Part shown: in pieces, positions 6,776 to 20,452 of the stretch
Numbering within the stretch: position 1 is the stretch's first letter
Layout: the number at the start of each line of letters is the position of its first letter
From: a virus
Virus record (IMG/VR): IMGVR_UViG_3300042896_001175
Coordinates: 1 to 22,393 of that record
Length of the DNA stretch: 22,393 bases
Direction: 5' to 3' (one strand)
Notes under the pieces: generated by a model
The model's database searches: none
Seen by the model: the letters and a program-made list of their open reading frames with translations, nothing else
Told to the model about the DNA's origin: nothing
Made by a program: the position numbers and the translations under genes

Positions 6776-7945
6776 ATGGAAAAAATTTTAAAATCAAACA
6801 TACAAAGAAAAGTATGGTATGCTCCTAATAAGTTTGAGTCTTATGGAGAAGAAGAAATAAAAGCAGTTGAAGCTTGTCTACGTGATGGGTGGTTAGCAGG
6901 ATTTGGTCCTCGTTCAATTGAGTTTGAAAAGAAGATTGCTAAACGATTCGGTAAGAAGTATGGAGTATTTGTTAACTCAGGCTCTTCAGCTTGTTTATTA
7001 GCAATAGCCGCTTTAGGACTTAAAAAAGGATCAAAAATCATTACACCAGCATGTACGTTCTCAACAACATTAGCACCAATTATCCAATTAGGATATGAGC
7101 CAATATTCTGTGATGTAGAGTTGACATCATATGTTCCTTCGGTTCAAAGTATCTTAGATTTGATTACAGAAGACGTTAGAGCAATCATGGTTCCAAACCT
7201 CATTGGTAACAAACCAGACTGGGATTTATTAAAGAGTGAGTTAGTTCGTATTGGTCGTGAAGATATTATCGTAATTGAAGATTCAGCAGATACAATTACA
7301 TACACAGAGAATACTGATGTATCAACTACAAGTTTCTATGCTAGTCATATTATCACAGCAGGTGGTACTGGAGGTATGGTTATGTTTAATGATATTAAGC
7401 ATGTAGAACGAGCATTGCAGTATCGTGATTGGGGTCGTATGGGAGATAACTCAGAGATTATGGATGATCGTTTTAATCATATAGTAGATGGTATTCCTTA
7501 TGATCACAAATTCCTTTATGGAGTATTAGGATATAATATGAAGTGTAGTGAGATGAGTGCTGCTTTTGGTCTAGTTCAATTAGAGCGATTTGAAGACTAC
7601 AAACACAAACGTAGAACAAACTTTGAGCGCTACTTAGAAAACCTTAAAGATATCGAAGAATTAATCCTTCCCGATGATAGCGTTGAACCAAATTGGTTAG
7701 CTATTCCATTACAAACAGAAAGACGCTTAGAATTACTAACTTTCTTAGAAGAGAATAATATTCAAACTCGAGTTACCTTTGCAGGAAACGTAACACGTCA
7801 TCCTATATATAGAGAATATTTACAGGACTTTGAGAATGCAGATGCAATTATGAAGAATGGTTTTCTATTAGGAGCACATCATGGGATGACCGTTGAGGAT
7901 GTAGACTATGTATGTGATAAAATTAAAGAATTTTTTGCAAAGTAA
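6776..7945 (+). CDS. PLP-dependent sugar 3-dehydratase-like enzyme (RfbH/ColD type)
   Basis: A 389-residue fold-type I PLP enzyme of the DegT/DnrJ/StrS superfamily. NSGSSACLLAI (about 67-77) binds the phosphate and EDSADT (Asp169) contacts the pyridine nitrogen. Aminotransferases of this superfamily have FxxxK-x-x-T-x-G; here the segment is SFYASHIITAGGTGG, with His191 at the Lys position. Replacement of Lys by His is the hallmark of the 3-dehydratases ColD (colitose) and RfbH/AscC (3,6-dideoxyhexoses). The C-terminal half also follows RfbH (RDWGR, then PYDHKFLYGVLGYNMK, then TFAGN). The RfbH Cys-rich 2Fe-2S segment after RDWGR is replaced by MGDNSEIMDDRF, with no cysteine. It would act on an NDP-4-keto-6-deoxyhexose; Gmd, four genes downstream, could supply a GDP-linked one. 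The stop overlaps the next start (TAATG). Confidence 0.85.
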   Translation: MEKILKSNIQRKVWYAPNKFESYGEEEIKAVEACLRDGWLAGFGPRSIEFEKKIAKRFGKKYGVFVNSGSSACLLAIAALGLKKGSKIITPACTFSTTLAPIIQLGYEPIFCDVELTSYVPSVQSILDLITEDVRAIMVPNLIGNKPDWDLLKSELVRIGREDIIVIEDSADTITYTENTDVSTTSFYASHIITAGGTGGMVMFNDIKHVERALQYRDWGRMGDNSEIMDDRFNHIVDGIPYDHKFLYGVLGYNMKCSEMSAAFGLVQLERFEDYKHKRRTNFERYLENLKDIEELILPDDSVEPNWLAIPLQTERRLELLTFLEENNIQTRVTFAGNVTRHPIYREYLQDFENADAIMKNGFLLGAHHGMTVEDVDYVCDKIKEFFAK

Positions 7946-8355: not shown

Positions 8356-8864
8356 TGAATGATGTATTCATACATGATGAAGCTGAATTTAAAAGGGGAA
8401 TTGAGTGTGAAGATCATGTAGCTATTGACAAAGGAGTTTATGCTACGGTTCTGTGTAAGATAGGATCATATACACATATTAGCCCATATGTTACCATTAT
8501 CGGAGGGTCTAAGGGTTATTTTGAGTGTAAGGGATTCAACAACATCATGGCTGGAGCTAGAATCATATGCGGCTCAGATAGGTTTGATGGTAGTGGTTTA
8601 TTTGGAGCCCTTATTCCGGATGAATTAAAAGGTAAACAAATTATTGAACCTGTAATAATGGAAGAATTCTCTAATATAGGCACAAACGCTATTGTTCTTC
8701 CGGGTTCTTGTTTACGAAAAGGTGTATTACTAACAGCAGGAAGTTTATTAATAGGTGATACTGAAGAATGGGGAATTTATCAAGGCAACCCAGCAGTGTT
8801 AATGAAAAAAATAGACGGTACTAAAATAATGGAAAATGCTAAAAAATTAGGTTATGAGTTTTAA
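8355..8864 (+). CDS. Left-handed beta-helix (hexapeptide) acyltransferase
   Basis: A 169-residue protein with repeated [LIV]-G-x-x-x-x imperfect hexapeptides. Examples are IGSYTHISPYVTIIGG (about 36-51), NNIMAGARIICGS (about 62-74), NIGTNAIVLPGSCLRKG and LLIGDTEEWGIYQGNPAVLMKK near the end. The YxGNPA ending is characteristic of sugar O- or N-acetyltransferases of the WbbJ/NeuD/FdtC type, which use acetyl-CoA and act as trimers. Given the aminotransferase-like gene directly downstream, N-acylation of an amino sugar is the simplest role; O-acetylation is equally compatible. Its last 11 bases overlap the next gene. Confidence 0.85.
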   Translation: MNDVFIHDEAEFKRGIECEDHVAIDKGVYATVLCKIGSYTHISPYVTIIGGSKGYFECKGFNNIMAGARIICGSDRFDGSGLFGALIPDELKGKQIIEPVIMEEFSNIGTNAIVLPGSCLRKGVLLTAGSLLIGDTEEWGIYQGNPAVLMKKIDGTKIMENAKKLGYEF

Positions 8865-9447
8865 TACAATAACAGAATTTGAAAATAAAATAGCTGAATT
8901 TTTCGGATCACCTTATGCTGTATCTATTGATTGCTGCACTCATGGAGTTGAACTATGTTTACGATACACACATGCTACTAAAATTATTGTTCCAAAACAT
9001 ACCTATTTATCTATTCCAATGTTAGCTAATAAATTAAAAATTGAATTAGAATGGAAGAATGAAAATTGGATAGATTATTATTATGTTACCGATAGTATAA
9101 TTGATGCCGCTGTACTTTGGAAACCAAATAGTTATATTCCTAAAACGTTTATGAATATTTCATTTCAATTTAGGAAACATTTGGCTTTAGGTAGAGGAGG
9201 TATTATATTAACAGATGATAAAAAAGCAGCAGAAATATTAAAGAAAATGTCATATGATGGTAGAGACCCAAATATATTATGGAGAGACCAAAATATTGAC
9301 ACAATGGGATACCATTATTATATGACCCCAGAAACCGCTCAATTAGGTTTAGATAAATTACCTAAAGCAATAGAAACACATCCAATACAATGGACAATAA
9401 ATGATTGGCCAGATTTAACACAAATGAAAATATTTAAACAGTTATAA
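8854..9447 (+). CDS. Miniature DegT/DnrJ-family sugar aminotransferase
   Basis: At 197 residues this is about half the usual 370-390 of the DegT/DnrJ/EryC1/StrS family, yet the key residues are present. FENKIAEFFGSPYAVSIDCC (about 9-28) matches the family N-terminus. IIDAA (Asp84) matches the pyridine-nitrogen Asp motif. SFQFRKHLALGRGG (about 103-116) contains the Schiff-base Lys108 and the glycine loop. YHYYMTPETAQLGLDKLPK matches the family segment after the active site. The loops between the PLP sites and the whole C-terminal small domain are missing or shortened. No frameshift is visible and the frame is intact from start to stop. It may be a real compact enzyme or a partner of the neighbouring dehydratase. 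With Gmd just downstream, a GDP-perosamine-like product is plausible but unproven. Confidence 0.75.
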   Translation: MSFNTITEFENKIAEFFGSPYAVSIDCCTHGVELCLRYTHATKIIVPKHTYLSIPMLANKLKIELEWKNENWIDYYYVTDSIIDAAVLWKPNSYIPKTFMNISFQFRKHLALGRGGIILTDDKKAAEILKKMSYDGRDPNILWRDQNIDTMGYHYYMTPETAQLGLDKLPKAIETHPIQWTINDWPDLTQMKIFKQL

Positions 9448-10418
9448 TGAAAAAAGCATTTATCACAGGAATTGGGGGGCAAGATGGTTCCTACTTAGCA
9501 GAATACTTAGTTGAACAAGGATATGAAGTTCATGGAATTATCCGAAGAAATTCAACCCCAGAACACCAACAAAGTAGAATTGAATCTTTAAGAGATAAAA
9601 TTAATGTGTATTATGGCGATCTCCTAGATCAATCCAGTATTGAGCATTTATTAGATAAAATACAACCAGACGAGATATATAACATTGCTGCACAAAGCCA
9701 CGTACGAATTAGTTATGATATTCCTCAATTTACAGCTCAAACAAATGCTGTTGGAGTATTAAACGTACTAGAAGCATATAGACGCTCATGTCCAAATGCT
9801 AAATTTTATCAAGCTAGTAGCTCAGAAATGTTTGGAAGTAGTGTTGATGAAGATGGATTTCAACGCGAAACAACTCCAATGAACCCAGTTTCACCATATG
9901 GCTGCACTAAGGTATTTGGATACAATATCGTGCGTAATTACCGCAATGCTTACAAGTTACATGCTTCAAATGGGATTTTATTTAACCACGAATCTCCTAG
10001 ACGTGGATCAAACTTTGTAACAAATAAAGTAGTTAAAAGTGCCGTTGAAATTAAATTAGGTATTTTAGATAAATTAGAGCTAGGAAATATGGATGCTTAC
10101 CGTGATTGGGGTCATTCGTATGATTACGTTAGAGCAATGTATTTAATTGTTCAACAAGATAAACCGGGTGATTGGGTTGTATCAACTGGAGAAACTCGTT
10201 CCGTAAGAGATATGTGTGAATATGTATTTAGTAAGTTAGGATTAGATTACAAGCAATATGTAGTGCAAAATGAGAAGTTTTTGCGTCCTGAAGAATTACC
10301 CTACCTTAAAGGAGATTCAACAAAAATCCGTACTGAGTTGGGGTGGACTCCAACATATACATTTGAAAGCATGATGGATGAAATGATTGAATATTGGATG
10401 AAAATTTTAAAAAAATGA
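9447..10418 (+). CDS. gmd: GDP-mannose 4,6-dehydratase
   Basis: Converts GDP-D-mannose to GDP-4-keto-6-deoxy-D-mannose, the branch point to fucose, perosamine, colitose and rhamnose. The 323-residue extended SDR shows the NADP-binding GIGGQDGSYL (about 8-17), IIRRNS (31-36), SSSEMFG (124-130), the catalytic Tyr151-x3-Lys155 in SPYGCTK, and NHESPRRGSNFVT, which is highly specific for Gmd. DAYRDWGHSYDYV and FLRPEELPYLKGD also match the family. It is slightly short at the C-terminus compared with bacterial Gmd (about 340-370). The stop overlaps the next start as ATGA. A fucosyltransferase-like gene follows, but an obvious GDP-fucose synthase does not. Confidence 0.95.
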   Translation: MKKAFITGIGGQDGSYLAEYLVEQGYEVHGIIRRNSTPEHQQSRIESLRDKINVYYGDLLDQSSIEHLLDKIQPDEIYNIAAQSHVRISYDIPQFTAQTNAVGVLNVLEAYRRSCPNAKFYQASSSEMFGSSVDEDGFQRETTPMNPVSPYGCTKVFGYNIVRNYRNAYKLHASNGILFNHESPRRGSNFVTNKVVKSAVEIKLGILDKLELGNMDAYRDWGHSYDYVRAMYLIVQQDKPGDWVVSTGETRSVRDMCEYVFSKLGLDYKQYVVQNEKFLRPEELPYLKGDSTKIRTELGWTPTYTFESMMDEMIEYWMKILKK

Positions 10419-12272: not shown

Positions 12273-13241
12273 ATGACAAAAGTAGTATACGTAACAGGTT
12301 GTTTAGGATTTATAGGATCCTATATAACAAGAAAATGTTTAGATAAAGGATGGTATGTGAAAGGAGTTGATAAAATGACTTATGCCGCCAACAAATATTT
12401 ACTAACTGAATTTAAAAAATACCCAAACTTTTCATTTGTTCATTGTGATATTAATGAATTAAAGTTTTTATATGATTGTGATTTTGTAATTAATACAGCA
12501 GCAGAAACACACGTTGGTAATTCAATTGCTAGCAGCACTGAATTTGTTAAATCAAATATTGATGGTGTTCATAATTTACTTGAATTAATCAAAAACCATA
12601 GAGGAGAAAATACTCAAAAACCAATCTTACTTCATTTTAGTACAGATGAAGTATATGGAGATATAGAATCTGGAGCCCATGATGAAGAACATTTACTAAA
12701 ACCATCAAATCCATACTCAGCAACAAAAGCAGCAGCAGATATGTTAGTTATGGCTTGGGGTAGAACCCATAATATACCTTATATGATTATTCGTCCAACA
12801 AATAATTATGGTATTGGACAATATGTAGAAAAATTAATCCCTAAAGCTGTAAAATTATTAAATTTAGGTCGTAAAATTCCACTCCACAATGGTGGTTCAC
12901 CATATAGAAATTGGTTACATGCATCAGACACAGCAGAAGCTGTAATCACATTAGTGGAAAATGGTAAAATAGGAGAAATTTATAATGTAGCAGGTGGTTT
13001 TGAACAACAAAATATAGAAACCGTAAAATCTATTATTACTGAATTTAATCAAGTTAAAAATTGGGAAGATTTTCATGATATAGAACATTATGTTGATTTT
13101 TCTTGTGATAGAAAAGGACAAGATGTTCGTTATGCTTTAGATGATTCTAAAATAAGAAATTTAGGTTGGGAACCAAAAAGCGTGTTTACTGAAGAAATCC
13201 CTCGTATAGTTAACCATTACAAAAATAAATTTATATGGTAA
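12273..13241 (+). CDS. NDP-glucose 4,6-dehydratase (RmlB-like SDR)
   Basis: Converts an NDP-glucose, usually dTDP-glucose, to the 4-keto-6-deoxy sugar. In the 322-residue sequence TGCLGFIGS (about 8-16) binds NAD. VDKMTYAAN (about 32-40) is the RmlB-type D-x-x-TYA motif. AAETHVGNSI, FSTDEVYGDI (Thr124-Asp125-Glu126 catalytic) and NPYSATKAAAD (Tyr148/Lys152) follow. RPTNNYGIGQYVEKLIP and DRKGQDVRYALD are also RmlB features. CDP-glucose dehydratases of the RfbG/DdhB type are an alternative, which matters because the YerE-like gene next door would act on a CDP-sugar in the known yersiniose pathway. Its last 7 bases overlap the TPP enzyme gene, so the two are coupled. Confidence 0.85.
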   Translation: MTKVVYVTGCLGFIGSYITRKCLDKGWYVKGVDKMTYAANKYLLTEFKKYPNFSFVHCDINELKFLYDCDFVINTAAETHVGNSIASSTEFVKSNIDGVHNLLELIKNHRGENTQKPILLHFSTDEVYGDIESGAHDEEHLLKPSNPYSATKAAADMLVMAWGRTHNIPYMIIRPTNNYGIGQYVEKLIPKAVKLLNLGRKIPLHNGGSPYRNWLHASDTAEAVITLVENGKIGEIYNVAGGFEQQNIETVKSIITEFNQVKNWEDFHDIEHYVDFSCDRKGQDVRYALDDSKIRNLGWEPKSVFTEEIPRIVNHYKNKFIW

Positions 13242-14983
13242 AAATTAGTGACGTAATAGCAGATTATTTATTAAAAAATAATATTGATATTGTATTTGGA
13301 ATTATAGGATCTGCAAACTCCCACATTTTCGATTCACTAAATAAACACCCAAACATTAAATTAATTTCAGTTCACCATGAACAAGTAGCTATAATGGCTA
13401 TGGGAGCTTATTATCGCTCAACTGGAAAAATAGCAGCATCATTAGTTACTGCTGGTGGTGGTGCCTCAAATTCATTTACAGGCATTTTATCTAATTGGGC
13501 AGATTCAATCCCCGGACTAATTATTTCAGGACAAGAACAATCATATTACATTGACCAATATTCAGATATGAGAATGTATGGTATTCAAGGATATGATTCA
13601 GTAGACACGTTTTCAAAACACACTAAAATGTCTGTTCGAATCACCAAGGAAAATGTATATAAAGTGTTCAATGATGCTTTCCGAACAACTCAAATCAATA
13701 GACCCGGCCCTGTATTTTTAGAGGTACCATTTGATGTTCAAGGACAGATGATTGAGGAACAACCTATTATTCCTTATAAAAAATCAAGTAATTCAATGTT
13801 AAGTTCAAAAACATTAGACTTGATAGATTTACTTAACCAAAGTAAAAAACCAGTTGTAATTGGAGGACATGGTGTTAAATTATCCCAATCAGAAAAATTA
13901 TTTAAACAATTTATTGAACAACATAATCTACCTACAATACTAACTTGGTCAGCAGTAGATTTACTTGAAGAAACCCACCCCAACAACTATGGCCGCTCAG
14001 GTGTTCAAGGACAACGCTCAGCTAATTTTATTGTTCAAAATTGTGATTTATTGATTGTAATGGGAAGTAGATTATCTTTATTACAAACAGGATATTCTAG
14101 AACAGATTTTGCTCCACATGCAAAAATAGTTCATATTGATATTGATCCAACCGAAACAAATAAATTTGACGGGTTAACAATTAATGAAGATATTGGAAAT
14201 ATATTATATGATTTAGTTTTACTTGATTCAATTAAATTAGATACTACTGAATGGAAATTATATTGTGATAATATTCGAAATGAATACCCTCGAGTAATGC
14301 CTGAACATTTAGCTGATCCTACTAATTCATATACATTTATGGATTGGTTTTCAAATAAGGTACCCGACAATTATACTATTGTTACAGATATGGGAACAGC
14401 ATTATTAAGCGGGTTCTATGGTTTTAATATTAAATCAAACCAAAAAATGTTTACTTCACTTGGTTTAGGTGAAATGGGATATGGTATAGCAGCAGCAGTA
14501 GGAGCAGGATTTGGCCACAACCCCGTAATGTGTTTAAATTGTGATGGGGGTATGATGATGAATTTACAAGAATTACAAACTATTAAAACACATAACTTAC
14601 CTGTTAAAATAGTAATATTCAATAATGATGGTTATTTAATGATTAAACATACTCAAAATATGTTATTTGGAGGAACCAAAACATGTGTTGATAAAAAAAC
14701 AGGAGTTACACTCCCAGATTATAAAAAAGTAGCAAAAGCATTTGAATACGAATATTATACTATAGATCAAGTAGATAAATTTTTATCATCCCCAAATCAA
14801 GGTATTTTAGAAGTATTTATGGATCCAAATCAAGAATTTATACCTAAAGTAAAAGGTATTAAAAATAAAGATAATACAATTCAAGCAGGTCTTTTGGAAG
14901 AAATGTCTCCTTTATTACCTTTAGAAAAAATTGAAAATATAATGATTAAAGTACACGAACGAAGTAAAACAGTATCACGATGA
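13235..14983 (+). CDS. Thiamine-diphosphate enzyme, acetolactate-synthase/YerE-like
   Basis: A 582-residue ThDP enzyme with the full pyruvate-oxidase/acetohydroxyacid-synthase layout. The N-terminal Pyr domain has the catalytic Glu49 (VHHEQVAIMAMGAYYRSTGK). The middle domain holds RPGPVFLEVPFD and HIDIDPTE. The C-terminal PP domain has a CDGG(437-439)...FNN(462-464) ThDP/Mg motif, where Cys436 replaces the first Gly of the usual GDG. A biosynthetic acetolactate synthase would be odd here, since no ilv genes accompany it. In sugar clusters related enzymes such as YerE carry a two-carbon unit from pyruvate to a 4-keto sugar, producing a branched sugar. The dehydratase upstream and the acetaldehyde dehydrogenase/aldolase pair downstream fit a branched-sugar role. 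FAD dependence cannot be told from sequence. Confidence 0.85.
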   Translation: MVKISDVIADYLLKNNIDIVFGIIGSANSHIFDSLNKHPNIKLISVHHEQVAIMAMGAYYRSTGKIAASLVTAGGGASNSFTGILSNWADSIPGLIISGQEQSYYIDQYSDMRMYGIQGYDSVDTFSKHTKMSVRITKENVYKVFNDAFRTTQINRPGPVFLEVPFDVQGQMIEEQPIIPYKKSSNSMLSSKTLDLIDLLNQSKKPVVIGGHGVKLSQSEKLFKQFIEQHNLPTILTWSAVDLLEETHPNNYGRSGVQGQRSANFIVQNCDLLIVMGSRLSLLQTGYSRTDFAPHAKIVHIDIDPTETNKFDGLTINEDIGNILYDLVLLDSIKLDTTEWKLYCDNIRNEYPRVMPEHLADPTNSYTFMDWFSNKVPDNYTIVTDMGTALLSGFYGFNIKSNQKMFTSLGLGEMGYGIAAAVGAGFGHNPVMCLNCDGGMMMNLQELQTIKTHNLPVKIVIFNNDGYLMIKHTQNMLFGGTKTCVDKKTGVTLPDYKKVAKAFEYEYYTIDQVDKFLSSPNQGILEVFMDPNQEFIPKVKGIKNKDNTIQAGLLEEMSPLLPLEKIENIMIKVHERSKTVSR

Positions 14984-15843
14984 AAATAAAAGTAGCAATT
15001 TTAGGTACCGGAAATATAGGTACTGACCTAATGTTAAAATCAATTAAAACCGATTTTATTGATATAGTAGCATTTGTAGGTCGAAGATTAGATTCAGACA
15101 CAATGCAAATTGCTAAATCTAAAGGAATATTAACCTCAGATCAAGGTATTAATTATTTTATAAATAATCCAAAATGTTGTGATGTTGTATATGATTGTAC
15201 TAGTGCAGCAGATGCTAGAGAACATGCTAAAGTATTTAAGGAGCAAGGAGTTAAAGTAATTGATTTAACTCCGGCTAAAGTAGGAGACATGTGTGTACCT
15301 GATATCAATTCTGATTTAATTTTAACAGATGATAATGTGAACATGATTACATGTGGAGGACAGGCTTCAATGCCTATGCTGCATTTAATTTCAAAACATT
15401 GTACTGGGTTAGAATATGTTGAGATTGTATCTCAAATTGCATCTAAAAGTGCAGGTATGGCAACTCGAATTAATGTTGATAATTATATTGCAACTACAAG
15501 AAAGGCAATTACTAAATTCACAGGATGTAAAAATACTAAAGTTATTCTTAACTTAAATCCAGCTGAACCTTGTGTTGATATGCAAACAACTATTTTTATT
15601 AAAACAAAAGATATTAACTTTAATCATTTAACAGAAGAAATTGCTGATAAAATTGAAGAATTAAAAACATATATCCCATACTATGAACTAGTATTACCAC
15701 CAACAATGAATGAAAATGGAGTAGTAGTTTTAAGCATCAGAGTAAAAGGCACTGGCGATTATCTTCCAGAGTACGCAGGTAATTTAGATATTATTAATTG
15801 TGCCGCAATTAAAATCACAGAAAAATTAAGTCAAAACATATGA
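14980..15843 (+). CDS. Acylating acetaldehyde dehydrogenase (DmpF/MhpF-type)
   Basis: Catalyses acetaldehyde + NAD + CoA to acetyl-CoA, normally in a complex that channels acetaldehyde from the partner aldolase. The 287-residue protein has the NAD-binding ILGTGNIGTDLM (about 7-18), DCTSAADAREH (about 72-82), LTPAKVGDMCVPDIN (about 96-110), the catalytic Cys125 in NMITCGGQASMPM, and a C-terminal GTGDYLPEYAGNLDI. Each closely follows the DmpF/MhpF family. It is slightly shorter than catabolic members (about 300-316). It starts as ATGA in the TPP enzyme stop and its own stop overlaps the aldolase start the same way. No other genes of aromatic catabolism are present, so a biosynthetic role in the sugar cluster is more likely. 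Confidence 0.9.
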   Translation: MKIKVAILGTGNIGTDLMLKSIKTDFIDIVAFVGRRLDSDTMQIAKSKGILTSDQGINYFINNPKCCDVVYDCTSAADAREHAKVFKEQGVKVIDLTPAKVGDMCVPDINSDLILTDDNVNMITCGGQASMPMLHLISKHCTGLEYVEIVSQIASKSAGMATRINVDNYIATTRKAITKFTGCKNTKVILNLNPAEPCVDMQTTIFIKTKDINFNHLTEEIADKIEELKTYIPYYELVLPPTMNENGVVVLSIRVKGTGDYLPEYAGNLDIINCAAIKITEKLSQNI

Positions 15844-16841
15844 AAAATATAATCATCACTGATTCAAGTCTTAGAGATGGAAATCACAGTGTTAAACATA
15901 CAATTAGTTTAGATAGCATTGAAAAATATTGTCAATTTGCAGATAAAGCAGGCATTCCAATTGTTGAAGTAGGACATGGTAATGGTTTAGCTGCTTCTTC
16001 TTTATTAATTGGAAAATCCCCCAATACAGATAAAGAAATGCTTACTATAGCAAGGAAAAATCTAAAAACCTCTAAATTAGGCATCCACACTATCCCCGGC
16101 TTATCAACTATTGATGATGCTAAATTAGCTATGGATTATGGAGTAGATGTATTTAGAGTAGCAACGCACTGCACTGAAGCAACGTTATCAAAATCTCATA
16201 TTGAAGCATTAGCCAAAACAAATAAAGAAGTATATGGAGTATTAATGATGTCAGCTTTAATCTCAGCTGAAGAATTAGCTGAGCAAGCTAAAATTATGGA
16301 AGATTATGGTGCTCAAGCTATAATTATTATGGATTCAACAGGTACTTATTTACCTCATGATGTAAAAGAAAGAATTAGTTTACTTAAATCAAAATTAAAT
16401 ATTAAAGTTGGTTTCCATGCCCATAACAATTTAGGGTGTGCTATAGCTAATTCATTAATCGCAGTAGAAAGCGGAGCTGAATTAATTGATGCCTGCATTC
16501 GTGGATTTGGAGCTGGAGCAGGTAACGCACCCTTAGAATTAATTCTTCCTGTACTTGAAAAAACAGGGTACACTACAGGTATTAGCTTTGAAGAAACAAT
16601 CAAAGAAGCAGATCGTGTAATGGATTATTTAGTACCAAGTGCCCCAATTACCACTCCAATCAATGTGCTAACAGGATTAACTCGTTTATTCTCAGGATTT
16701 GAAAAACCAATTGTAAAAGCATCTAAATTGTATGGTATTGAATATTCATCTCTCATTTTTGAATTAGGTAATAGAAAATTAGTTGCAGGGCAAGAAGATT
16801 TAATTTTAGAAGTTGCTCAAAAACTAAAAGAAAATAAATGA
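15840..16841 (+). CDS. 4-hydroxy-2-oxovalerate aldolase (DmpG/MhpE-type)
   Basis: A class II, divalent-metal aldolase that cleaves or forms 4-hydroxy-2-oxoacids from pyruvate and an aldehyde. The 333-residue TIM-barrel protein has the family start DSSLRDGNHSVKH. Arg12 and Asp13 are the catalytic and metal residues, and His16 matches the catalytic base of DmpG. EVGHGNGLAASS (about 43-54) matches the family substrate segment, and GFHAHNNLG supplies the metal ligands His193 and His195. RGFGAGAGNAPLE is also typical. The partner dehydrogenase is directly upstream with an ATGA overlap, as in catabolic operons. In this setting the enzyme may run in the condensing direction, or may supply acetyl units. 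That is inference. Confidence 0.9.
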   Translation: MKNIIITDSSLRDGNHSVKHTISLDSIEKYCQFADKAGIPIVEVGHGNGLAASSLLIGKSPNTDKEMLTIARKNLKTSKLGIHTIPGLSTIDDAKLAMDYGVDVFRVATHCTEATLSKSHIEALAKTNKEVYGVLMMSALISAEELAEQAKIMEDYGAQAIIIMDSTGTYLPHDVKERISLLKSKLNIKVGFHAHNNLGCAIANSLIAVESGAELIDACIRGFGAGAGNAPLELILPVLEKTGYTTGISFEETIKEADRVMDYLVPSAPITTPINVLTGLTRLFSGFEKPIVKASKLYGIEYSSLIFELGNRKLVAGQEDLILEVAQKLKENK

Positions 16842-17749
16842 GAATTTTAATTACAGGTGGTAATGGATTCTTAGGGTCTAATATTGTTAGAAAACTGATT
16901 AAAGAAAATCATAATGTGTATGTTTTTTCTAAATCAACTAATAATATTCAAGATGTTTTAGATAAAATTAAATTTGATTTTAGTTCTAATAATGAATTAA
17001 TTAATTTTGAGAAAGAAATTTTAGAATTTTCTCCTGAAATAGTAATTCATTGTGGTTGGAGTGGGGGTAATAGCTATCAAGATGTAAATGATTTAAACCA
17101 ACTATATGAAAATGTAGTATCTAGTGTCAAGCTAATAGAAATTTTAAATAAACTCAAACTCAAACCTAAATTTATTGGATTTGGTAGCTTTTCAGAATAT
17201 GGAAATTTACCAATACCTATAAATGAAAATGACACAGAGCAGCCAATAAATTTATATGGATTGTCTAAACTAACATTTAAAAATTATAGCAAAATGTTAT
17301 GTGACAATTACGGTATGGAGTGGGTTTGGGTTAGACCATGTTACATATATGGACCAAATGATGTTAAAACTAGATTAATCCCATTATTAATTAATAAATT
17401 ATTAAATGATCAAGAAATCATTTTAGATGATTGCAATAAAATTATAGATTATCTTTATATTGATGATTTTGTAAATTATTTTTATAGCTTAACCCAAATA
17501 CCATCAGAAGGAATTTACAACATTTGTTCAGGAAAACAATATAATTTAAAAGAATTAATTCAAGACATCCATCAACTTTCCCAAAGTAAAAGTAAAATTT
17601 CCTTTGATCCAAAATTAAACCGTAAATTTACTTCATCCCATATATGTGGAGATAATACAAAAATTACTAAACAAAGCAATTATTTCCCTCAATTAGATAT
17701 TAATCAAGGGGTTTTATTAACCATCAATTATTATAAAAAGTTATTATGA
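16838..17749 (+). CDS. NAD(P)-dependent epimerase/reductase (extended SDR)
   Basis: A 303-residue extended SDR acting on a nucleotide sugar. Visible are ITGGNGFLGSN (about 5-15), IVIHCGWSGGNSY, the GFGSFSEYGN segment (about 114-123) with catalytic Ser117, Tyr140-x3-Lys144 in YGLSK, and VRPCYIYGPND. The substrate cannot be named. The closest roles in comparable clusters are 4-ketoreductases of dideoxyhexose pathways (RfbJ/abequose synthase type) and reductases of the branched side chain such as YerF. It follows the aldolase by an ATGA overlap and is itself coupled to the FkbM gene, so it probably acts in the same pathway. Confidence 0.8.
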   Translation: MRILITGGNGFLGSNIVRKLIKENHNVYVFSKSTNNIQDVLDKIKFDFSSNNELINFEKEILEFSPEIVIHCGWSGGNSYQDVNDLNQLYENVVSSVKLIEILNKLKLKPKFIGFGSFSEYGNLPIPINENDTEQPINLYGLSKLTFKNYSKMLCDNYGMEWVWVRPCYIYGPNDVKTRLIPLLINKLLNDQEIILDDCNKIIDYLYIDDFVNYFYSLTQIPSEGIYNICSGKQYNLKELIQDIHQLSQSKSKISFDPKLNRKFTSSHICGDNTKITKQSNYFPQLDINQGVLLTINYYKKLL

Positions 17750-18384
17750 AAAATTTAGTTACGTTAAAAGACAATAAATGGGTATGGCCCATAAGTGATG
17801 AAAATAGTTGGATAGGACAAAATGAATTTCAAGATCTTGCAAAATGGGTTCTTCCCCATGTTAAAGAAAAAAACATCATGATTCAAGCAGGTGGTAATTG
17901 TGGTTTTATGTTAAGCAATTTTGTTGAACATTTTAATACAATATATACATTTGAACCAGATCCAATTAATTTTTATTGTTTAAATCAAAACGTTACCTCC
18001 CAAAATGTTATTAAAATGCAGTGTTGTTTAGGTAATGATCCAAAACCTGTTGCTACTCAACATTTAATTAGACCTGACAGGCCAAATGATATTGGAGGAG
18101 TACATATCTCCGGAACAGGATTTACTCCATCAATAGTAATTGATAACTTATCTCTTCCAGGATGTGATTTAATTCAATTGGATGTTGAAGGATATGAATT
18201 AAATGCTCTTTTAGGAGCTGAAAAAACTATTAAAAAATATAGTCCTGTTTTATGTATAGAATTCTGTGAAAAATGGTTAAATAGATATGACACTTCATCC
18301 GATAAAATATTAGGATTATTGGGAGATTGGGGGTATATTCAAGTAAAAGAATACGGAGTTGATAAAATTTTTATTAAAAAATGA
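17746..18384 (+). CDS. FkbM-family SAM methyltransferase
   Basis: A 212-residue class I methyltransferase. MIQAGGNCGFML (about 45-56) is SAM motif I. TFEPDPINFYCLNQNV (about 68-83) binds the SAM ribose and is characteristic of FkbM. LIQLDVEGYELNALLGAEK (about 142-160) is the diagnostic FkbM block. FkbM enzymes O-methylate sugars, polyketides and similar small molecules. Here methylation of a glycan hydroxyl is the natural reading, giving a capped or masked sugar. ATGA overlaps tie it to the SDR genes on both sides. The exact acceptor is unknown. Confidence 0.9.
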   Translation: MKNLVTLKDNKWVWPISDENSWIGQNEFQDLAKWVLPHVKEKNIMIQAGGNCGFMLSNFVEHFNTIYTFEPDPINFYCLNQNVTSQNVIKMQCCLGNDPKPVATQHLIRPDRPNDIGGVHISGTGFTPSIVIDNLSLPGCDLIQLDVEGYELNALLGAEKTIKKYSPVLCIEFCEKWLNRYDTSSDKILGLLGDWGYIQVKEYGVDKIFIKK

Positions 18385-19157
18385 AAATACTAATTACAGG
18401 AGGAAATGGTTACATTGCAAAAAGCATATATTCTGCTTTATCTTTAAAACATGATATAACTCTAGTAACTAAAAATGATCTTAATCTTACTCTCCGAGAT
18501 AAAGTTAAACATTACTTTGTAAACAACCAATTTGATTTAGTTATCCATACCGCAGTGGTAGGAGGAAACCGACTTTTATCAGATGGACCAGATGTTGCAC
18601 TTTCAAACATATTAATGTATGATAATTTAATGCGTTGCAGAGACAAATTTACTAGATTAATACATTTTGGTTCAGGTGCTGAAGATAAAGCTGATGATCC
18701 TTATGGGTTTAGTAAACACACCATATCCCAGTTGATGAAATTGGATTCTAAAAGCATAAATGTAAAAATATATGCTGTATTTGATGGAAATGAATTAGAT
18801 ACTAGATTTATTAAAAGTAACATTACCCGATACATTAATCGAGAAGATATGATTATCCATCAAGATAAAAAAATGGATTTCTTTTACATGAAAGATTTAA
18901 TTTCATTAATAGAATGGCTTATCAATCAACGTGAAGAAGAATTCCCTATACAAGAAATTAACTGTAGTTATTTAGATAAAACAACCCTTACCCAAATTAC
19001 TGAAATGATTAATTCATTAAGTGATTATAAAGTAAATATTAAAATAGAAAATAAAGGACAAGGTGATGATTATTGTGATGTACATCCAATAATGCCTTTT
19101 AATTTAATAGGATTAGAACAAGGAATTAAAGAAACATATAATAAATTAAACCAATGA
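18381..19157 (+). CDS. Short NAD-dependent epimerase/dehydratase (SDR)
   Basis: A 258-residue SDR, shorter than usual for nucleotide-sugar enzymes (about 300-350). Features are ITGGNGYIAKSI (about 5-16), a DLVIHTAVVGGNR segment (about 52-64), HFGSGAEDKADDPYGFSK (about 95-112) with Tyr108 and Lys112, and FDGNELDTRFI in the substrate domain. The FGSGAE...YGxSK and VVGGN patterns recall GDP-fucose synthase (WcaG/Fcl). That would complete a GDP-fucose route with gmd and the GT11 gene. The similarity is partial and the substrate domain is divergent, so I leave the gene unnamed. The stop overlaps the next start (ATGA). Confidence 0.7.
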   Translation: MKILITGGNGYIAKSIYSALSLKHDITLVTKNDLNLTLRDKVKHYFVNNQFDLVIHTAVVGGNRLLSDGPDVALSNILMYDNLMRCRDKFTRLIHFGSGAEDKADDPYGFSKHTISQLMKLDSKSINVKIYAVFDGNELDTRFIKSNITRYINREDMIIHQDKKMDFFYMKDLISLIEWLINQREEEFPIQEINCSYLDKTTLTQITEMINSLSDYKVNIKIENKGQGDDYCDVHPIMPFNLIGLEQGIKETYNKLNQ

Positions 19158-20452
19158 TAAAACCAATTAGTTTTTGTATAGCAACTGCTAACAATGAAAA
19201 AGAGTACATTAAACTTTTAATCCAATCATTACAAGACCATACCCAATTTGATCTTCATGAAGTAATTATATTTGTGGATACAGATAATCAAGGTACATAT
19301 GAAGAACTTTTAAAACTTCAAAAAAACCACTCCAATATTAAAATATGTAAAAATCCTGATTCATCCCCTGTTTGGGCCCAATTAAATGCCTCATTAATGT
19401 TTCAAGCAGCTACTAAAGAGATATTCTGTTATATCCAATCAGACATGGTTGTTGGGAAAAATTTTGATAAACACATTACCCAAAACCTAATCTCAGAAAA
19501 TACAGTGTTATCTTGTGCTCGAATCGAGCCACCATTACACCCTGCATCCCCAGAAAAGATTGTTAAAAGTTTTGGAACATCTCCAGATGATTTTGATTAT
19601 AAAGGATTTAATAAATTTGTTGATGAATTACAAAAAGAAAATAGACCAAATATTTGGGGCCACTTTGCTCCATTTGCAATGTATAAAAAAACATGGTTTG
19701 ATAAATTAGGGGGATTTGATCAACAATTTAGATCATCACGAGAAGATTCAGATTTAATCATACGAATGGGATTGAATGATCTAGATCTAGTTCAATCATG
19801 GAATGCTTGTGTTTACCATTTTACTTGTGTATCAAGTAGAGGAAAAGATTGGTTTAAATCAACAAAACAAACCGATTATAAAAATTTACTTCAATCACAC
19901 GCTGATGCTCAAGAATTGAAACGATTTGTTCGAAAATGGGGAATGTTTGGTCATCACGCTCAACCCGTATATGATATTGCATTTAATATAGAAATTGATC
20001 GTTTTGTTGATTTTAATTTATTGAAATGGATAGAACCATATTGTAAAACACTTTATCTTTCTGATAAAAGTATTGTTGATCAATTAATATCTCAAATTGA
20101 ATTTGAATCTAATTACTACAATAATTTACGTTGGGGTTATTCAAATGAATATTGGGATAAAGTAAAACATATCTATAATCCAAATACATTTGAAGATAAA
20201 ATTAGTACTGAAGTTAAAGAACATGATGTAGTTATTTCATTTAAGTTATCTGAATTAATGGATTCATTAGATCAAGATCTTCAAAATATAATAGTAAACA
20301 TTCATCCATTAATAGATCAAAATGAAATAGGGGAATTCGGGTATGGCCCATTAACTATTAAAATTAATAATAAAAATAATTTAATGAATACTTATAAAAA
20401 ACATTCCGGAATCCCATCAATATTAGATCAATCCAAATACATATTTAATTAA
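19154..20452 (+). CDS. GT2-family glycosyltransferase with long C-terminal extension
   Basis: A 432-residue protein. The N-terminal 230 residues are a GT-A domain: ISFCIATANNEKEYIKLLIQ (about 5-24), VDTDNQGTYEEL, the metal motif IQSDMVVGKNF (Asp97), and LGGFDQQFRSSREDSDLIIR (about 185-204), with Glu197-Asp198 as the catalytic ED pair of many GT2 enzymes. The last 200 residues (WIEPYCKTLYLSDKSIVDQL onward) are not typical of the family and I do not recognise them. They may be a second domain for acceptor binding. It is the last glycan gene, followed by only 30 bases before a small phage gene. Donor and acceptor are unknown. Confidence 0.8.
   Translation: MIKPISFCIATANNEKEYIKLLIQSLQDHTQFDLHEVIIFVDTDNQGTYEELLKLQKNHSNIKICKNPDSSPVWAQLNASLMFQAATKEIFCYIQSDMVVGKNFDKHITQNLISENTVLSCARIEPPLHPASPEKIVKSFGTSPDDFDYKGFNKFVDELQKENRPNIWGHFAPFAMYKKTWFDKLGGFDQQFRSSREDSDLIIRMGLNDLDLVQSWNACVYHFTCVSSRGKDWFKSTKQTDYKNLLQSHADAQELKRFVRKWGMFGHHAQPVYDIAFNIEIDRFVDFNLLKWIEPYCKTLYLSDKSIVDQLISQIEFESNYYNNLRWGYSNEYWDKVKHIYNPNTFEDKISTEVKEHDVVISFKLSELMDSLDQDLQNIIVNIHPLIDQNEIGEFGYGPLTIKINNKNNLMNTYKKHSGIPSILDQSKYIFN

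Follow-up and report, generated by a model that had tools for sequence, protein, structure and literature searches.

The complete virus record IMGVR_UViG_3300042896_001175, a stretch of 22,393 bases that is here called the window, contains three consecutive genes at positions 13,235–16,841, which encode a thiamine diphosphate (ThDP)-dependent enzyme of 582 amino acids, an acylating acetaldehyde dehydrogenase of 287 amino acids and a 4-hydroxy-2-oxovalerate aldolase of 333 amino acids (Table 1). The open reading frames and their ATGA overlaps are as described in a first-pass annotation made from the sequence alone: such overlaps occur at both inner junctions of the trio and again where the aldolase gene runs into the next gene, and the upstream RmlB-like gene overlaps the ThDP gene by seven bases (ATGGTAA). 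The GC content of the trio is 30–33%, in keeping with the 30.6% of the window. No inner stops were found, and the ratios of non-synonymous to synonymous substitution rates (dN/dS) between the window and the locus L002 are 0.11, 0.02 and 0.06 for the ThDP enzyme, the dehydrogenase and the aldolase, respectively. All three are genuine, undisrupted genes that are coupled in translation and subject to strong purifying selection; the low dN/dS values, which lie between 0.02 and 0.12, and a gene order repeated in dozens of contigs show that the trio is not a product of chance. Downstream, Pfam recognizes in order a short-chain dehydrogenase/reductase (SDR), an FkbM methyltransferase, a second SDR and a GT2 glycosyltransferase. 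The position between an RmlB-like dehydratase and SDR/methyltransferase genes had been pointed out before, as had the lack of aromatic-catabolism genes, none of which was detected by Pfam and NCBIfam scans of ten genes around the trio.

The ThDP protein has three TPP-enzyme domains (Pfam), and its best full-length match in the PDB is 8rph (458 bits); this structure is of JanthE, which is YerE-like and carries CDG, an unusual form of the cofactor motif (PMC12188165). Its PDB scores to E. coli isozyme 1 and PpYerE are 244 and 238 bits. The window protein likewise has CDG in place of GDG (within NCDGG), which is invariant across twelve viral relatives and present in nearly all of the trio-linked ThDP proteins. 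In two trees (FastTree with 120 rows, IQ-TREE with 42), all trio-linked ligases and JanthE form one group, with support of 100% and 99%, respectively. E. coli IlvB stands outside this group, as does a YerE from Pseudomonas that scores 870 bits with 5ahk, with the caveat that both of these outgroup rows are long-branched. By these comparisons, the ThDP enzyme is a YerE-like sugar-branching ligase, a member of the JanthE subgroup, and is not an acetolactate synthase. Of the earlier label, acetolactate-synthase/YerE-like, the YerE-like part stands, with JanthE nearer than YerE, and the synthase part does not. On superficial annotation, the three genes could still be taken as viral genes for host carbon metabolism, with an acetolactate synthase that would serve branched-chain amino acid synthesis, next to a pair that would supply acetyl-coenzyme A (acetyl-CoA) from 4-hydroxy-2-oxopentanoate. 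This is highly improbable, as no acetolactate-synthase model reached its cut-off (best 313 against 738 bits; TIGR00118, 295 against 538), the ligase lies apart from IlvB, catabolic genes are absent upstream, and sugar genes are the neighbors in viruses and bacteria alike. On its scores and tree position, an acetolactate synthase for amino acids was rejected.

The other two members of the trio are of the DmpF and DmpG types, as first supposed, and both exceed curated cut-offs. The dehydrogenase has an AcetDehyd-dimer domain (Pfam), scores 326 bits with TIGR03215 (cut-off 282) and matches 7z3s and 1nvm_B in the PDB. The aldolase has HMGL-like and DmpG communication domains (PF07836 above cut-off) and scores 344 bits with TIGR03217 (cut-off 286). 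The catalytic residues are intact, again as claimed: C125 of the dehydrogenase and R12, D13, H16, H193 and H195 of the aldolase, all invariant in nine-sequence alignments, and E49 of the ThDP protein, the glutamate of the HHEQ motif.

The aldolase departs from its catabolic relatives at the two sites of stereocontrol. When aligned to 1nvm, His83 and Phe284 of the window protein fall at DmpG 88 and 291, which we take to be positions 87 and 290 of BphI, whose numbering usually runs one lower. A residue census covered 81 viral aldolases (including that of the window), 72 from bacterial loci found by the ThDP scan, and 26 of catabolic type (25 gammaproteobacterial aldolases and E. coli MhpE). The Leu87 site is His in all 81 viral and all 72 bacterial ThDP-linked aldolases, and the Tyr290 site in these two sets is nearly always Phe (four viral copies have Met, and one has a gap). 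The catabolic-type enzymes have Leu or Ile with Tyr in 24 of 26 cases; two distant outliers have Phe/His. With His83/Phe284 and sugar-gene neighbors, the window aldolase does not look like a catabolic DmpG, which has Leu and Tyr at these sites and aromatic-pathway neighbors; a catabolic use of the pair was rejected, since there are no pathway genes nearby and the site residues differ. BphI yields only the (4S) product, its Y290F variant loses control, and the L87N/Y290F and L87W/Y290F variants yield (4R) (PMC3962088). By analogy, the window aldolase is predicted to make, probably, (4R)-4-hydroxy-2-oxopentanoate. The branched sugar erwiniose is 3,6,8-trideoxy-D-gulo-octose with a 1-hydroxyethyl branch; if this name holds, D at C7 corresponds to R, and the (4R) acid would be needed.

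The trio is linked to sugar genes in bacteria as well as phages, as the first-pass annotation had proposed to check. Neither sequence-based outcome that it had named as a refutation, a grouping of the ThDP enzyme with true acetolactate synthases or a trio not conserved with sugar genes in relatives, was observed. When bacterial genome contigs were searched with the ligase alignment alone, at least 80 loci were found in Bacteroidota, Pseudomonadota, Verrucomicrobiota, Bdellovibrionota and others; these include kin genomes and are not independent events. Among the 80 listed, 72 have the aldolase, 73 the dehydrogenase, 65 RfbH, 61 RfbG and 61 RfbF. In Flavobacterium hercynium (L050), RfbF, RfbG and RfbH score 385, 466 and 703 bits (cut-offs 300, 278 and 423), and in Rugamonas rivuli (L076), whose ligase is 98.7% identical to JanthE, the order is RfbG, RfbH, ligase, dehydrogenase and aldolase. 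Judged by family models, the bacterial clusters carry the full gene set for cytidine diphosphate (CDP)-3,6-dideoxy-4-keto-glucose. In three Pseudomonas clusters (L079, L080 and L081), a YerE gene stands in tandem with that of a JanthE-type ligase, so that a single locus with the dehydrogenase and aldolase has two branching enzymes. At L018:5324-7100, a ligase homologue adjoining the pair is present as two overlapping open reading frames, either a real split or a frameshift. A search for the Pectobacterium erw cluster in an order-level sample of 392 genomes gave L214/L215 as the sole above-threshold match, and this was rejected as an unrelated dehydrogenase-aldolase-aminotransferase set. The set at L215:7988-11165, with a dehydrogenase, a His/Phe aldolase and an aminotransferase-like gene in the absence of a ligase, perhaps represents a 4-hydroxy amino acid route.

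Two scans of viral contigs yielded 19 and 80 loci, partly on shared contigs, and the viral counts given here refer to the second set plus the window (81 loci). The dehydrogenase and aldolase are present in 63 of the 81, so that the trio is not rare among viruses, contrary to the first impression that it would be unusual. The RmlB-like gene is likewise found in 63 and in most phages immediately precedes the trio. A relative of the window reductase is found in 57, usually right after the aldolase gene, or after the ThDP gene where the aldolase is absent, and a Gmd-like gene in only 26. RfbF and RfbG were found in none of the 81 loci; of the erwiniose set only an RfbH-like gene is present, and the phages have an RmlB-like dehydratase instead of RfbF/RfbG, plus either a standard RfbH that has the iron-sulfur cysteines or a shorter form that has the catalytic His and not these cysteines. 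In nine phages (L133, L142, L144, L145, L148, L149, L151, L152 and L153), a 3-dehydratase, a CDG ligase and a reductase stand in a row, and the contigs examined contain neither the dehydrogenase nor the aldolase. In L176–L179, a ligase of 34% identity adjoins the reductase in the presence of RmlB-like and RfbH genes and in the absence of an aldolase; the ligases of L176, L177 and L179 have the GDG motif.

According to PMC12247030, ErwE joins a hydroxylated 2-oxo acid to CDP-4-keto-3,6-dideoxyglucose to give erwiniose, with 4-hydroxy-2-oxo-butanoate, -pentanoate or -hexanoate as preferred donors and pyruvate unused, while YerE uses pyruvate and JanthE takes short and longer acids. In the text consulted of that paper and of PMC8657720, the origin of the 4-hydroxy-2-oxo acid is not stated, and the dehydrogenase-aldolase pair is the obvious source. 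Erwiniose is a ten-carbon branched monosaccharide (PMC8657720), and ten carbons fit the six plus four of the pathway outlined next. Sugars of this type are rare, and so far bacterial surface polysaccharides are where they are known.

We consider it likely that the virus carries, in the trio, a copy of a branched-sugar pathway of the erwiniose type. The dehydrogenase, predicted to run from acetyl-CoA and reduced nicotinamide adenine dinucleotide (NADH), would produce acetaldehyde and pass it to its partner aldolase, and the aldolase would join acetaldehyde and pyruvate to 4-hydroxy-2-oxopentanoate, with (4R) as the probable configuration. Next, the ThDP enzyme would decarboxylate this acid and add the resulting four-carbon acyl anion to the C4 keto group of a nucleoside diphosphate (NDP)-4-keto-6-deoxy or 3,6-dideoxy hexose, for whose synthesis the RmlB-like dehydratase would act with the RfbH-like 3-dehydratase. 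The ketone formed by this addition would be reduced by a short-chain reductase, and the sugar, now of ten carbons, would be methylated and then moved by the neighboring glycosyltransferases onto a phage- or host-surface glycan. The sequences themselves show which genes are present and how they are related, with catalytic residues conserved, linkage recurring and selection acting on them; the donor of ErwE, the ketone ligation of the characterized JanthE and the stereocontrol of BphI are reported for relatives. We infer the direction in which the pair runs, the donor, the acceptor and its nucleotide, the configuration, the part played by the reductase, and the final sugar with its placement. 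The use of an aldol product as ThDP donor onto a keto sugar, giving a longer branch, had already been proposed; it is well supported by the gene comparisons, and the report on ErwE (PMC12247030) indicates that such chemistry exists.

Alternatively, the ThDP enzyme may graft a two-carbon acetyl unit from pyruvate, as in yersiniose or as JanthE is able to do in vitro, with the pair serving separately, for example in acetaldehyde/acetyl-CoA recycling. JanthE is reported to accept pyruvate and 2-oxobutyrate (PMC12247030), and the nine phages mentioned above keep the 3-dehydratase, CDG ligase and reductase without the pair. However, more than 70 of the 80 bacterial loci listed, from many phyla and found by a ligase-only search, have the pair together with the CDG ligase, and in phages the genes are often ATGA-coupled; such linkage would be needless for a pair that recycles. 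Since the aldolase also departs from catabolic ones at both stereocontrol sites, this alternative is unlikely, and acetyl recycling, the second option of the first-pass annotation, has become less likely with it.

A slightly more improbable variant keeps the long-branch pathway with another aldehyde, which could be hydroxylated or could be propionaldehyde derived from propionyl-CoA, and the branch would then differ. The donors of ErwE include 4-hydroxy-2-oxo-butanoate and -hexanoate, BphI accepts longer aldehydes once Leu89 is made smaller (PMC3962088), and a precedent exists in caryophyllose, 4-C-(1,3,4,5-tetrahydroxyhexyl), with a six-carbon branch (PMC5706390). Against this, the dehydrogenase exceeds the curated cut-off for acetaldehyde dehydrogenases, the Leu89 site (BphI numbering) holds Ile, whose side chain is similar in size, and a polyhydroxylated aldehyde is not derivable from an acyl-CoA.

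Several points weigh against the erwiniose-type reading itself. The nine aldolase-free phages have CDG ligases that are 49–50% identical, and no aldolase was seen in their contigs examined, so that the ligase is able to do without an aldolase; these phages may graft a shorter unit and make a shorter-branch version. When their ligases were compared with trio-linked CDG ligases, four columns differed (H358, A389, V431 and A502 in the window), none clearly of the donor pocket. Because JanthE takes pyruvate too, family membership does not settle the donor, and because the phages are without RfbF/RfbG, they may use another acceptor than the erwiniose pathway does. The His/Phe signature is also found in the L215 aldolase, which adjoins an aminotransferase gene with no ThDP gene, and may mark biosynthetic aldolases in general. 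In addition, a change of Leu87 to His is absent among the BphI variants assayed, and the (4R) prediction is by analogy to L87N/Y290F and L87W/Y290F.

Candidate genes for the acceptor sugar and its tailoring lie on both sides of the trio (Table 1). The RmlB-like dehydratase is the predicted source of a 4-keto-6-deoxy sugar; the Gmd-like gene is a possible alternative source, and the carrier would be deoxythymidine diphosphate, CDP or guanosine diphosphate. To make the acceptor, the RfbH-like 3-dehydratase is probably required as well; encoded outside the coordinates given in the first-pass annotation, it is predicted to remove the C3 oxygen. In this protein, a catalytic His replaces the Lys that binds pyridoxal phosphate (SFYASHIITAGG, aligned to His220 of E1), and the cysteines of the [2Fe-2S] cluster are missing (RDWGRMGDNSE where RfbH has RDWGRDCYC). 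This shorter form is common to about 25 viral loci, whereas bacterial and other viral copies retain the cysteines. Relatives of 73–78% identity abut the ThDP gene in the nine aldolase-free phages, which suggests that the RfbH-like protein serves the ligase. The reductase that follows the methyltransferase gene could take the part of YerF and reduce the ketone left by acyl grafting; the FkbM methyltransferase and GT2 glycosyltransferase are candidates for O-methylation and transfer of the finished sugar. A relative of the SDR next to the aldolase is found in 17 of the 81 viral loci. At positions 8854–9447, the window has a short DegT-like protein of 197 amino acids, about half the usual length, adjoining acetyltransferase and cupin genes; it is also found in four related viral contigs.

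Table 1. Features of the window assigned to branched-sugar synthesis and its surroundings
Feature	Position	Strand	Basis
RfbH/ColD-type sugar 3-dehydratase	6776..7945	+	PDB 3bcx/3bb8, 197 bits
GDP-mannose 4,6-dehydratase-like (Gmd-like)	9447..10418	+	TIGR01472, 385 bits (cut-off 415)
RmlB-like NDP-glucose 4,6-dehydratase	12273..13241	+	TIGR01181, 295 bits (cut-off 365); STDEV and YSATK (YxxxK) motifs
JanthE-type ThDP-dependent ligase	13235..14983	+	Pfam, PDB match, CDG motif, tree
Acylating acetaldehyde dehydrogenase, DmpF/BphJ type, Cys125	14980..15843	+	TIGR03215, PDB, conserved Cys
4-Hydroxy-2-oxovalerate aldolase, DmpG/BphI type, His83/Phe284	15840..16841	+	TIGR03217, 1nvm alignment, residue census
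SDR-family epimerase/dehydratase-like protein	16838..17749	+	PF01370
FkbM-family methyltransferase	17746..18384	+	PF05050; TIGR01444 above cut-off
Short-chain reductase	18381..19157	+	GGNGY and YGFSK motifs; viral recurrence
GT2-family glycosyltransferase	19154..20452	+	PF00535

Among 50,697 records of deposited phage genomes, no close relative of the trio proteins was found: among the matches listed, identities are 24.7–32.5% for the ThDP enzyme and 23.1–37.4% for the aldolase, and several of the records matching these two resemble bacterial genomes. The carriers are T4-like phages, since the T4 Gp23 capsid family is present in nine of 13 large viral contigs; the window comes from an aquatic virus of this kind. 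An exonuclease of the window is nearest to those of Flavobacterium myophages (42.6%), and among bacterial ligases the one of L021, from a Flavobacteriaceae bin, lies closest to the phage clade; these two affinities make a Bacteroidota host plausible for the window phage. A second viral ligase group (L159–L163) nests beside JanthE, and a single viral origin of the ligase was rejected (p-AU, 1.5e-59 by the approximately unbiased test on a quick LG tree). By the contig scans and trees, the trio is present in more than 60 viral contigs and was acquired at least twice. The literature search found no paper on phage-encoded versions; the chemistry is already known in bacteria, and the viral version is new.

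More tentatively, T4-like phages may have built a long-branch synthesis of their own, with an acceptor fed by RmlB rather than from CDP-glucose, an RfbH-like 3-deoxygenase free of iron-sulfur, and a DmpG aldolase that is by nature inverted to (4R) selectivity and coupled to a CDG ligase, yielding an undescribed ten-carbon sugar on virions or infected cells. If the pathway operates as proposed, viruses make a sugar that ranks among the most elaborate of bacteria, and do so often, given the contigs and acquisitions counted above. The linkage of the pair to JanthE-group ligases would propose a physiological donor for that group, and the His/Phe aldolase would be a natural counterpart of the laboratory-engineered reversal of aldolase stereochemistry.

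Of the known systems, JanthE from Janthinobacterium sp. HH01 (8rph/8rpi/8rpj) is the closest solved sequence, with a shared CDG motif and clade, but where its flavin adenine dinucleotide site has Tyr268 and Pro293, the phage protein has Gln and Leu; the phage ligase is about 40% identical to its nearest bacterial members. With ErwE of Pectobacterium atrosepticum, the phage enzyme is predicted to share the donor 4-hydroxy-2-oxopentanoate and the acceptor type, a 4-keto-3,6-dideoxy hexose (PMC12247030); ErwE is compared here by its description, which mentions no CDG motif, and the phage differs from the erwiniose pathway in having an RmlB-like dehydratase in place of RfbF/RfbG. YerE of yersiniose A synthesis (PpYerE, 5ahk) has a like chemistry, decarboxylation of a 2-oxo acid and addition to a 4-keto sugar, but transfers C2–C3 units only, has GDG and lies outside the trio clade. 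The DmpG-DmpF and BphI-BphJ pairs share folds, catalytic residues and gene pairing with the phage pair, whereas the latter has His/Phe for Leu87/Tyr290, a sugar context and a predicted synthetic direction. Finally, RfbH (E1, CDP-6-deoxy-4-keto-glucose 3-dehydratase) is the closest relative of the window 3-dehydratase and shares its catalytic His, but RfbH has the iron-sulfur cysteines, as do the bacterial and most other phage copies, and the window protein does not.

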